DNA of 64,000 bases from an uncultured Christensenellaceae bacterium (GTDB lineage: Bacteria > Bacillota > Clostridia > Christensenellales > Aristaeellaceae), in assembly GCA_905234985.1 (NCBI GenBank), contig CAJOJQ010000003.1:1-64000 (forward strand), written 5' to 3'. Made by a program: the position numbers and the translations under genes. This document shows positions 19,778 through 63,807 of the stretch, piece after piece. Below the pieces are notes generated by a model, which was not told the DNA's origin, did not search any database, and saw only the letters and a program-made list of their open reading frames with translations. How positions within the stretch are numbered: position 1 is the stretch's first letter; each line of letters starts with the position of its first letter.

Positions 19778-19804
19778 GGAGAAAACCTCCGTAGATTACT
19801 GAGC

Positions 19805-19931
19805 GGGAGTGGAGAATGAAGAGCGGAGAGTTGAGATTTATATCGTATCATACATAAGGACATCCAGACAAACAACAAATCCTATAATCGGGCAAACCTT
19901 ATCTCAACTCTCAACTCTCCACTCTCAACTC
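19805..19931. repeat. Inverted heptamer-array repeat, family A copy 1
   Basis: Left arm 19805-19836 is built of GAGAGTT/GAGAGTG-like 7-base units. Right arm 19901-19931 is the inverse, with four units. They enclose a 64-base AT-rich spacer with no gene. The same unit and layout recur at 46963-47072. It fills most of the gap upstream of the TPR operon. Confidence 0.85.
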
Positions 19932-19942
19932 TTTAGTATACC

Positions 19943-27134: not shown

Positions 27135-27212
27135 TAGGTAGGAAGTAGGAGGTTTGTATAGTCCACAAAAGGACAAAGCACCGCATTTCGACATGATAAA
27201 ACCTCCTACCTG
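27135..27212. repeat. Inverted heptamer-array repeat, family C
   Basis: Left arm 27135-27155 reads as TAGG-TAGGAAG-TAGGAGG-TTT, and right arm 27198-27212 is its inverse (AAACCTCCTACCTG). The spacer is about 42 bases. It lies in the gap before the flavin reductase and has the same layout as families A and B with a different 7-base unit. Confidence 0.7.
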
Positions 27213-27252
27213 TTTTAAAACGTACTCAAAATTAGAAAAGGAGGAATCACCC

Positions 27253-27864
27253 ATGGCTCACCCCTTCGTTTCTCTCACCCCCGGTACGCTGCTTGCCCCT
27301 GTGCCCGCCGTGATGGTTTCCTGCGCGCTGCCGGGACAAAAGCCCAATATCGTCACCATCGCCTGGGCGGGCACGATCAATTCCGATCCGCCCATGTGCT
27401 CTATTTCCGTGCGCAAGGAACGTTTTTCCCACGACATCATCCGGGATTCCGGGGAGTTCGTTATCAACCTGTGCGGGCAGGAGCAATTGAAGGGCATGGA
27501 TTTCTGCGGCGTGAAATCGGGCCGGGACACGGATAAGTTCGCCGCCTGCGGGTTTGCGCCTGTTCCTGTGCCGGGGTTCACCGCCCCCGCCGTGGGGGAA
27601 TGCCCCCTGTACTTAGCTTGCCGGGTCACATCCGTGCAGGAATTGGGCAGCCACGATCTGTTCTTGGGTAAGGTGGAGCAGATGGGCGTGCGGCCTGACC
27701 TGATCGACGAAGCGGGCCGCATCGACTTCGGCAAAGCCCGTTTGGTGGCCTACAATCACGGGAATTATTACGCCTTGGGCGAGGCCTTGGGCTTCTTCGG
27801 CTATTCCGTGGCCGCCCCGGACGTGCTGGAGCGCCGGATGAAACAGTTGAAAAGCGGAAAGTGA
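27253..27864 (+). CDS. Flavin reductase-like FMN-binding protein
   Basis: 203-aa split-barrel FMN-binding protein of the flavin reductase-like/DIM6-NTAB family. Seen motifs include PAVMVSCALPGQKPNIVTIAWAG, INSDPPMCSISVRKERFSHD and GEFVINL. AGGAGG lies about nine bases before the ATG at 27253; the frame is open further up but without a start site. The substrate is unknown; family members reduce FMN or act as flavoenzymes. The last codons (KSGK then stop) fall inside the downstream heptamer repeat, so that element marks the very end of the gene. Confidence 0.85.
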   Translation: MAHPFVSLTPGTLLAPVPAVMVSCALPGQKPNIVTIAWAGTINSDPPMCSISVRKERFSHDIIRDSGEFVINLCGQEQLKGMDFCGVKSGRDTDKFAACGFAPVPVPGFTAPAVGECPLYLACRVTSVQELGSHDLFLGKVEQMGVRPDLIDEAGRIDFGKARLVAYNHGNYYALGEALGFFGYSVAAPDVLERRMKQLKSGK

Positions 27865-27959
27865 AAAGTGGTAAAAGTGGAAATGAAAAGTGAAAGCGAT
27901 TTGCACGGCGGTTGCACTATTCTAATCTTCACTTTTCACTTTCCACTTTTCACTTTTTT
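27855..27959. repeat. Inverted heptamer-array repeat, family B copy 1
   Basis: Left arm (27855-27896) of AAAAGTG/GAAAGTG units and right arm (27927-27959) of the inverse units CACTTTT/CACTTTC. The left arm begins within the last codons of the flavin reductase gene. A second copy is at 63703-63807. The right arm ends in CACTTTTTTC, so it could also act as a terminator. Confidence 0.85.
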
Positions 27960-28028
27960 CATCTTTAGCAGGTTTTTTCAAATCCACGCAGAAAATAATT
28001 TGTATACAACGCAAAGGAGGAAGCACCC

Positions 28029-35573: not shown

Positions 35574-35640
35574 GGAACGTCGCAGCGCTTGAAAAAAGCC
35601 TGTGACCCCCACGCCATACCGTCATAAGAGGAGAAAACAG

Positions 35641-38118
35641 ATGAAAAGGTTTTTCTTGTTTGCTCTGTGCATCATGCTCGTTTTTGCCTGCATGTCTGCC
35701 ATCACGGAGGAAAGCGCTCAGGATTTGCTCATCAAGGGTAAAGAGGCATTCGATCAGGAAGATTACGAGACAGCGATTCAGTATCTGCTTCCCGCGGCAG
35801 AGCAGGGGCTTGCTGAAGCGCAGGCCTATATGGGAAATTGCTGCTACAAGGGTTACGGCATTGAACAATCCTATGAGAAAGCAGTAGAGTATTACCGGCT
35901 GGCTGCGGAACAAGGGAATGCCATAGGTCAGAACGGCTTGGGGCGGTGTTACGCGAATGGCTATGGCGTGGAGCAATCCTACGAGAAAGCAGTAGAATAT
36001 ATTCAATTGGCTGCGGCTCAGGGATACCGCAATGCGCAATACAATTTAGGCATTTGCTACGATAATGGTTACTTCCTGGAGCAATCCTACGAAAAAGCAG
36101 TGGAATACTACCGGCTGGCTGCAGATCAGGGATATGCAATGGCTCAGTACAATCTGGGCGTTTGCTACGAGGATGGCCGCGGCGTGGAGCAATCCTACGA
36201 AAAGGCGGTAGCATACTATCAACTGGCGGCAGATCAAGGGGATGCATGGGCGCAGAACAATCTGGGCCTTTGCTACGAGGATGGCCAAGGCGTAGAGCAA
36301 TCCTACGAAAAAGCTGTGGAATACTACCGGCTGTCCGCCGACCAGGGACATGCAAGTGCGCAGACCAATCTGGGGGTTTGCTACGTGTATGGCCGCGGCG
36401 TGGAGCAATCCTATGAAAAAGCGGCAGAATATTATCAACTGGCGGCAGATCAAGGTAATGCAAGTGCGCAGAGCAATCTGGGCAATTGCTACTATTATGG
36501 CCGCGGCGTGGAGCAATCCTACGAAAAGGCGGCAGCATACTATCAACTGGCGGCAGATCAAGGTGATGCATCGGCGCAGAACAAGCTGGGCGATTGCTAC
36601 GCGTATGGCCTAGGCGTGGAGCAATCCTACGAAAAAGCGGCAGCATACTATCAACTGGCGGCAGATCAAGGTAATGCATCGGCGCAGGACAATCTTGGCG
36701 ATTGCTACGCGTATGGCCTAGGCGTGGAGCAATCCTATGAAAAAGCGGCAGCATACTATCAACTGGCGGCAGATCAAGGTAATGCATCGGCGCAAAACAA
36801 GCTGGGCGATTGCTACTATTATGGCAAAGGTGTAGAGCAATCCTACGAAAAAGCCGTAGAATATTTCCAGTTAGCCGCGGAACAGAAATATGTTGAAAGC
36901 CAGATGCGGCTGGGCTATTGCTACTATTATGGCCTAGGCGTGGAGCAATCCTACGAAAAAGCGGCAGCATACTATCAACTGGCGGCAGATCAAGGTAATG
37001 CATCGGCGCAGAACAATCTTGGCGATTACTATGCGTATGGCCGCGGCGTGGAGCAATCCTACGAAAAAGCGGCAGCATACTATCAACTGGCGGCAGATCA
37101 AGGTGATGCATCGGCGCAGAACAATCTTGGCGAATGCTACTATGATGGCCGCGGCGTGGAGCAATCCTACGAAAAAGCGGCAGCATACTATCAACTGGCG
37201 GCAGATCAAGGTGATGCATCGGCGCAGAACAATCTTGGCTATTGCTACTATTATGGCCAAGGCGTGGAGCAATCCTACGAAAAAGCGGCAGCATACTATC
37301 AACTGGCGGCAGATCAAGGTGATGCATGGGCGCAGTACACGCTTGGCATTTGCTACGAGCATGGCCAAGGCGTGGAGCAATCCTACGAAAAAGCGGCAGC
37401 ATACTATCAACTGGCGGCAGATCAAGGTGATGCATGGGCGCAGAGCAATCTGGGCAAATGCTACTATTATGGCAAAGGTGTAGAGCAATCCTACGAAAAA
37501 GCCGTAGAATCTTTCCAATTAGCCGCGGAACAAAAATATGCTGAAAGCCAGATGTGGCTAGGCTTTTGCTATGACAACGGCCAAGGAGTGGAACAGTCCT
37601 TTGAAAAGGCAATAGAATACTACCAACTGGCCGCAGATCAAGGCAACGCTTGGGCACAGTATTATCTCGGATACTGCTACGAGAATGGCCGCGGCGTGGA
37701 GCAATCCTACGAAAAAGCTGCGGAATACTACCGGCTGGCAGCAGACCAGGGATACGCAGCGGCGCAGAACAATCTGGGTAATCGCTACTATAATGGCGAA
37801 GGCGTGGAGCAATCCTACGAGAAAGCCATAGAATACTTCCAGTTGGCTGCGGATCAAGGAAATGCTGAAAGCCAGATGAGGCTGGGCTTTTGTTATGACA
37901 ACGGTCAGGGGGTAGAGCAGTCCTTTGAAAAAGCGATAGCATACTATCAGTTGGCCGCGGATCAAGGCAATGCATGGGCACAGTATTATCTTGGATACTG
38001 CTATGAGACTGGCCGAGGCGTGGAGCAATCTGACGAGAAAGCGGCGGAATACTACCAGCTGGCCGCTGATCAGGGGCATGAAGAAGCCGAAAAGGCGCTG
38101 GCCAATCTAAGGGAATAA
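35641..38118 (+). CDS. Secreted Sel1-repeat protein with 21 near-identical repeats
   Basis: 825 aa. A signal peptide (MKRFFLFALCIMLVFACMSA) ends near residue 20; the cysteine in VFACMSA may be a lipidation site but is not a classic lipobox. Then come 21 tandem 36-residue Sel1-like repeats with core GVEQSYEKAAAYYQLAADQG. The central units are almost identical at DNA level in 108-base periods. Such alpha-solenoids usually bind proteins. AGGAG precedes the ATG at 35641. It lies between the PTS EII and HPr genes, which is odd for an exported scaffold protein. Base composition is lower in GC than its neighbours. Repeat number is likely to vary between strains. No partner is known. Confidence 0.9.
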   Translation: MKRFFLFALCIMLVFACMSAITEESAQDLLIKGKEAFDQEDYETAIQYLLPAAEQGLAEAQAYMGNCCYKGYGIEQSYEKAVEYYRLAAEQGNAIGQNGLGRCYANGYGVEQSYEKAVEYIQLAAAQGYRNAQYNLGICYDNGYFLEQSYEKAVEYYRLAADQGYAMAQYNLGVCYEDGRGVEQSYEKAVAYYQLAADQGDAWAQNNLGLCYEDGQGVEQSYEKAVEYYRLSADQGHASAQTNLGVCYVYGRGVEQSYEKAAEYYQLAADQGNASAQSNLGNCYYYGRGVEQSYEKAAAYYQLAADQGDASAQNKLGDCYAYGLGVEQSYEKAAAYYQLAADQGNASAQDNLGDCYAYGLGVEQSYEKAAAYYQLAADQGNASAQNKLGDCYYYGKGVEQSYEKAVEYFQLAAEQKYVESQMRLGYCYYYGLGVEQSYEKAAAYYQLAADQGNASAQNNLGDYYAYGRGVEQSYEKAAAYYQLAADQGDASAQNNLGECYYDGRGVEQSYEKAAAYYQLAADQGDASAQNNLGYCYYYGQGVEQSYEKAAAYYQLAADQGDAWAQYTLGICYEHGQGVEQSYEKAAAYYQLAADQGDAWAQSNLGKCYYYGKGVEQSYEKAVESFQLAAEQKYAESQMWLGFCYDNGQGVEQSFEKAIEYYQLAADQGNAWAQYYLGYCYENGRGVEQSYEKAAEYYRLAADQGYAAAQNNLGNRYYNGEGVEQSYEKAIEYFQLAADQGNAESQMRLGFCYDNGQGVEQSFEKAIAYYQLAADQGNAWAQYYLGYCYETGRGVEQSDEKAAEYYQLAADQGHEEAEKALANLRE
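35857..38082 (+). repeat. Tandem 108-bp repeat array within the Sel1 gene
   Basis: About 21 units of 108 bases, counted by the recurring GAGCAATCCTA(C/T)GA segment. Units around 36500-37450 are nearly identical, so recombination can add or remove units in frame. Boundaries are approximate. Confidence 0.85.
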
Positions 38119-46908: not shown

Positions 46909-46962
46909 GGGAGGCCCTCCAATCTTTGTTCTTTTGTGCTGAATTCAAGAAGTCTTTAAATC

Positions 46963-47072
46963 AGAGTGGAGAGTTAAGAGTTGAGAGTTGATATGATATA
47001 GTGATTATCACAAGAGAATCCAATTTGATTGACTATATAAATCTCAACTCTCCACTCCCAACTCTCCACTCT
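46963..47072. repeat. Inverted heptamer-array repeat, family A copy 2
   Basis: Left arm 46963-46992 of AGAGTGG/AGAGTTG units, right arm 47042-47072 of the inverse, spacer of ~49 AT-rich bases. The same unit as at 19805-19931. It fills most of the 191-base gap between the Nudix and lgt genes. Confidence 0.85.
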
Positions 47073-47099
47073 TTTGCTGTCTTAAAGTGTTTTATAAGG

Positions 47100-63675: not shown

Positions 63676-63702
63676 CCGAAAAAAGGCACAGCGCGCGAAG
63701 AT

Positions 63703-63807
63703 AAAAAGTGAAAAGTGAAATGATATATTGCTTCCCAAACCATCGGATGTCAGGCAATGTGTCTTGTATTCAAATCTTCACTTTTCACTTTCCACTTTCT
63801 ACTTTCT
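63703..63807. repeat. Inverted heptamer-array repeat, family B copy 2
   Basis: Left arm 63703-63720 of AAAAGTG units, right arm 63776-63807 of CACTTTT/CACTTTC/TACTTTC units, spacer of ~55 bases. The unit is the same as at 27855-27959. Confidence 0.85.

Follow-up and report, generated by a model that had tools for sequence, protein, structure and literature searches.

Position and number of the inverted heptad arrays

How do inverted stacks of a 7-base unit come to lie in the gaps between bacterial genes, and what are they? The question is raised by a stretch of 64,000 nucleotides (the window) from the genome G000, in which the initial annotation had described two gaps with facing arms of GAGAGTT/GAGAGTG units. 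Both arrays were found where they had been placed, with about four inverted units per arm. The first one, A1, spans the nucleotides 19804–19933 and consists of the arms 19807–19836 and 19902–19932, a core edge at 19837–19846 (TTTATATCGT) and a variable centre. The second one, A2, spans 46962–47073 with the arms 46963–46991 and 47042–47072 and the core edges TGATATAGTG and GACTATATAAA. A motif scan and genome search revealed a left outer motif of A2 at 46947–46964 on the plus strand (AAGAAGTCTTTAAATCAG), and a right outer motif lies at 47081–47094 on the minus strand (minus-strand reading TAAAACACTTTAAG). The count of two is too low, as the window contains five elements. In addition to the two of the GAGAGTT type (family A) there are two with inverted arms of the AAAAGTG type (family B), namely B1 at 27838–27965, which starts at the end of the open reading frame 27154–27864, and B2 at 63696–63807, and a short element of GAGGTAG/GAAGTAG units (family C) at 27135–27213 with the core edges GTATAGTC and GACATGATA.

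Our counts rest on a sample of 854 kb, that is 24% of G000 (3.57 Mb, 97 contigs), and on pattern searches of the whole genome. Inverted pairs of arms with a period of 7 were sought with a detector, which found 81 elements in the sample and none in three Markov-1 simulations of it. With respect to the period, 74 inverted-arm pairs were obtained at 7 and 0–1 at each remaining period between 4 and 13 (14 being a multiple). Extrapolation from the sample gives ~340 elements in G000; the search for period-7 inverted pairs that had been proposed as a check thus leads to hundreds of copies and to none in simulated DNA. The exact family A pattern has 190 matches per strand across the whole genome and none in the reversed control, a number which is not an element count because a single element can contribute several matches in overlapping registers. 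That the inverted heptad arrays are real and not a product of chance is confirmed.

Anatomy of the elements

The elements, which mostly measure ~95–140 bp, follow a common layout: an outer motif in some copies, 3–6 heptads, a TATA-like core edge (TTTATATAGTC or TTTATCATGTT), a variable centre and then the mirror image. At least five families of heptad units are present within this one genome. Family A accounts for 39 of the 81 elements, family C for 21 and family B for 12, and two families found outside the window, E (GAGATAG/GAGTTAG) and D (CAGAGTT/CAGAGTA), account for five and four, respectively. In all families the purine-rich strand runs inward. The TATA-like edge is present at 52 of 78 inner arm ends in family A, 38 of 42 in C and 7 of 8 in D, compared with 17% in shuffled cores, and is less common in B (10 of 24 ends) and E (3 of 10). 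The initial annotation had called the spacers of the two family A arrays unrelated; this is correct for the middle only, as the spacer edges share the TATA-like motif. The centres are variable, and some of them recur almost identically at separate loci of G000 (C1:20279, C11:113, and C14:125318).

Inverted heptad arms are found in every copy, whereas the outer motif (consensus in G000 AAGRACRCTTTAARTCAG) is present at a minority of ends and absent from most. It begins mostly 16 nt from the array, and the ten best matches of a matrix scan of the 854 kb are all element ends. Element ends were used to build the matrix, and what counts independently of this is the near absence of equally good matches elsewhere. 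The motif joined to C-type arms has 27 matches in the whole genome versus one in the reversed control. Other outer inverted motifs occur as well, for example, GCATGAATT...GGATTTG at C6:91163.

The suspicion that the arrays act as large hairpins is in line with the predicted folding of the window elements, which is much better than that of shuffles (z −4 to −9; for A1 −4.2 as DNA and −7.4 as RNA, for A2 −9.1 and −8.7). Short, present in high copy number, devoid of coding capacity (81 in 854 kb, all intergenic) and bounded by terminal inverted repeats, the elements have these features in common with MITEs, and they share with MITEs and REPINs the intergenic position and the two inverted parts forming a hairpin. 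A search of Rfam gave no match at the gathering score and thus no known structured RNA family; the match to a catalogued repeat that would have spoken against a new element did not turn up there.

One element of G000 (C13:47965–48107) is chimeric: each of its arms combines A heptads with D heptads, which gives the impression of recombination between two elements. Within family A, the heptad TTGAGA and the core edge TATAGT make up inward promoter-like pairs in 30 of 78 strands (6 expected). A portable promoter as the shared function was rejected, since such pairs are enriched in family A only and not in C.

Placement relative to genes

Genes were called with a simple codon-based caller. Although 85% of the sample is coding, all 81 elements are intergenic, which led us to reject a coding function (none lies within a called gene) and agrees with the earlier description as a recurring intergenic element. 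In tandem gaps the element starts at a median of 7 nt past the stop codon and ends 39 nt ahead of the following start. The elements are depleted from divergent gaps (5 of 67), and the overall gap occupancy is 12–15%.

This position, the depletion of divergent gaps and the strong folding, as well as the finding, described below, that other families re-occupy the same gaps, would fit hairpins that serve at gene ends as stabilizers of the mRNA 3′ end, insulators, or terminators and that are kept by selection and, instead of moving, are renewed in situ through slippage and gene conversion. We consider such a function quite improbable. Sites freely lose their element or stand empty (in the sister species G003, 15 of 28 have none), and terminator prediction gave no call at A2, for which reason a terminator role was dismissed. 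Arm-to-arm gene conversion was not seen, because two arms belonging to the same element do not resemble each other more than arms taken from different elements do; a first test had hinted at an even lower resemblance, and this was dropped since a cleaner alignment gave p = 0.11. Moreover, change in place leaves unexplained how the same centre comes to be found at different loci.

Turnover between sister species

Orthologous gaps were compared in the sister species G041, G003, and G010, whose Lgt proteins are 96, 95, and 92% identical to that of G000. Elements were taken as the same when the local match score was at least 26 over the central 52 nt, which is an arbitrary cut. A1 is missing from the orthologous gap of all three species. 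B1 is common to G000, G041, and G010, and G003 keeps a remnant of the left arm only. At the site of B2 a C-family element is found in G041 and an A-family element in G003, and the site of the short C-family element (27135–27213) holds an A-family element in all three species. At the A2 site, G041 has a C-family element between unchanged flanks and outer motifs, G010 has an A element with another centre, and G003 has a non-heptad sequence adjoining the right outer motif.

For G041, 29 orthologous sites were compared, of which 14 have the same element, 12 a different one (10 from another family) and 3 are empty; for G003, 2 of 28 sites have the same element, 11 another and 15 none. These fractions are not those of all elements, because sites with the outer motif were preferred in the selection. 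Of the 15 sites that are not conserved in G041, 12 are occupied by another element, which has to be compared with the occupancy of 12–15% (binomial 2e-8). This re-occupation may reflect hot gaps, tolerant gaps, or replacement in place; at C7:32724 the conserved flanks stop at different points, so that the gap was not necessarily hit at the same base. Taken together, the elements are abundant and ordered, and they are in flux when sister species are compared.

The conserved outer motif of A2 with its different contents in the four species, and a similar pattern at C3:100602, could also mean that the palindromic outer motif was there first and served as the target, a fixed landing pad whose exchangeable contents are the heptad elements. 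This is highly improbable, as an empty palindrome was not seen in the scan of 854 kb, many elements have no outer motif, and at C7:57916 the element and its right-hand outer motif were gained or lost as one. At the ortholog of C3:100602 (L300) and in two other stretches of G003 (L366 and L367), mutually similar hairpin-rich sequences of 410–470 bp, probably another dispersed repeat, are found where G000 has C-family elements.

Slippage changes the arms inside existing elements: at C14:87913 the centre is the same in G000 and G041, and in G041 the left arm has one unit more and the right arm has fewer units. Simple microsatellite slippage had been doubted as an explanation of the arrays, and rightly so, since slippage acts, but on the arms of elements that already exist. 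The suggestion that the arrays are recombination scars is not supported, as a given copy is either there or missing as a whole and the copies have core, arms, and outer motif in common.

An insertion sequence lands in the elements

The end of an insertion sequence (TAAAGTGCTCCCTTTGTCAAGGACAATTTTG) has 11 copies in G000, each at a contig end. Eight of the 11 lie inside a heptad element, at or just past the left array (stretches L307, L310–L315, and L317); with elements making up ~1.1% of the genome this corresponds to p ~3e-14. Judging from the shape of the end alone, as the interior is not assembled, our guess would be an IS3-like family. IS1397 and ISKpn1 are known to target REP sequences, which are dispersed palindromes (PMC1525189). 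The preference for landing in a dispersed palindrome is the same here, whereas the target is a heptad element, which adds a class of palindromes to the landing sites of insertion sequences.

Occurrence in other genomes

At least 106 of at least 117 stretches from named genomes that match the family A pattern hold an inverted period-7 element according to the detector, from which no frequency follows as the pattern by which they were chosen selects for arms. The carriers among the matches listed comprise Ruminococcus flavefaciens, other Clostridia, Bacteroidota, Planctomycetota, Verrucomicrobiota, Fibrimonadales, Acidobacteria, and Anaerolineae. The centres differ in these genomes, and small GC hairpins are found within those of R. 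flavefaciens and a planctomycete. Within the genus the pattern is abundant in few species and absent from most, with other heptads in other species, and it was not found in 16 other families of the order. We regard it as doubtful that all these elements form a single cross-phylum class of bacterial foldback mobile element, in which the arms would be the recognition site or the synthesis product of one enzyme that tolerates many 7-base words and only the period of 7. On contigs labelled as viral (L391–L394), REP-like hairpins with a GTAG foot (e.g., GTAGCGCGGCCTCCGGCCGCTAAGGTAG) interrupt C heptads.

Possible mode of movement

We think it probable that the elements are non-autonomous and mobile, MITE-like and foldback-like, with an imperfect hairpin whose arms are remodelled by slippage. 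Copy number, shared anatomy, intergenic placement, presence or absence and replacement at orthologous sites, slippage, and capture of an insertion sequence are direct observations. Mobility is favored because hundreds of copies share one layout across at least five heptad families, because the recurrent outer motif keeps a fixed spacing and because near-identical centres occupy different loci; further reasons are the presence or absence and the far-above-chance re-occupation at orthologous sites and the exclusively intergenic position (81 of 81) together with a heptad number that varies between orthologues. A transposase made elsewhere would recognize the hairpin or its ends and move the unit in trans into intergenic DNA, where only copies just past stop codons and away from promoters would survive, by selection and not by aiming. 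The arms would subsequently alter their length and unit type through replication slippage, and elements would be lost via deletion.

Several results weaken this reading. Most ends are without the outer motif, and the inserted stretches carry some 30–40 nt of extra unshared flank, which is untidy for a classical transposon. No target-site duplication was detected, as direct repeats in the flanks are close to shuffles (k = 6, 99 vs. 89.8 ± 6.1; k = 8, 15 vs. 10.1 ± 2.8), a test weakened by uncertain true element ends. An autonomous copy, that is a gene between heptad arms (lone arms were also checked), was not found in the 854 kb, 24% of the genome, which is weak evidence because copies of the insertion sequence break contigs.

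The initial annotation had considered that a dedicated enzyme may make the arrays and had suggested a test for association with a reverse transcriptase, transposase or nuclease gene. We found a match in G000 neither to RVT_1 nor to Y1_Tnp. RVT_1 is also missing in G041, and repeats made by a reverse transcriptase (DGR, retron, group II) were rejected on these grounds. REPINs, which pair two REPs, go with a RAYT (Bertels and Rainey 2011, PMC3116915), and such a Y1/HUH single-strand transposase might move the present elements in a REPIN-like fashion via a single-stranded intermediate and without target duplication. The hairpin shape, the placement past stop codons, the missing target duplication, and the GTAG-footed hairpins between C heptads point in this direction, as does the presence of Y1_Tnp in 16 of 20 genomes bearing inverted heptads other than the four named next (G003 being among the 20), which is confounded by lineage and genome size. 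G003 appears to be the goat-reticulum MAG RGIG3226, as the Y1 match has the same coordinates in both. Movement by a RAYT is unlikely nonetheless. Y1_Tnp is missing in four of the five element-rich species (G000, G010, G023, and G041; the assemblies are incomplete), and two R. flavefaciens genomes that bear elements have no Y1 match. Inverted heptads are absent beside all nine Y1 loci inspected in the genus and beside seven of eight outside; the single Y1 gene of G003, included in the nine, is flanked by repeats of another kind. In addition, the core of the heptad elements is not a REP hairpin, and the elements differ from REPINs in that their arms are stacks of heptads and that a RAYT is missing in most bearing species of the genus. 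In Planctomycetales MS499-59 (L407) a Y1 transposase gene has CAATTAA heptads at one flank and 16 TTCTTAA heptads at the opposite flank.

Relation to known repeats

A literature search with the literal repeat strings found nothing relevant. The available part of a study of Xanthomonas (Rehm et al. 2015, PMC4692102) describes GGGAATC heptads that are intergenic and tandem, mostly with about four units and with 70–75 inverted pairs per genome, that lie nearer to the end of the upstream gene than to the next gene and that vary in length between species. Tandem heptads, inverted pairs, intergenic position, and proximity to the end of the upstream gene are likewise found here, and thus the kind is known in outline. 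In that part of the report the paired inverted heptads are described without explanation and studied as G-quadruplex formers, and a bacterial excess of heptads, noted before, is ascribed to polymerase slippage. GAGAGTT is not a G-tract, and a common core, an outer motif, several families, element turnover, and targeting by an insertion sequence set our elements apart from what is described there. What is added here is a multi-family element with a shared core, with turnover, and with use by an insertion sequence. Since the heptads form the arms of a defined element, and since close sister species do not have the same occupant at half of the sites examined, a statistical oddity becomes a testable mobile-element problem with named sites.

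The Foldback and Galileo elements of Drosophila have subfamilies, a very variable middle and long inverted arms, which consist in part of tandem direct repeats and in which these repeats independently grow and shrink in number; they measure hundreds of bases to kilobases, generate 7-bp target duplications and have a P-type transposase (PMC3573991). The likeness is one of plan only, that is inverted tandem-repeat arms, subfamilies, and a variable middle, and we claim no relationship; Foldback and Galileo are eukaryotic, larger, and make 7-bp target duplications. As the hairpins differ between sister species of a rumen bacterium, they resemble foldback transposons, of which they would be a fast-moving counterpart in bacteria.

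The window also harbors a coding repeat: at 35950–38072, within the open reading frame 35602–38118, ∼20 tandem repeats of 108 bp encode 36-residue units (YEYGHGVEQSYEKAAAYYQLAADQGNA...) resembling Sel1-type repeats.
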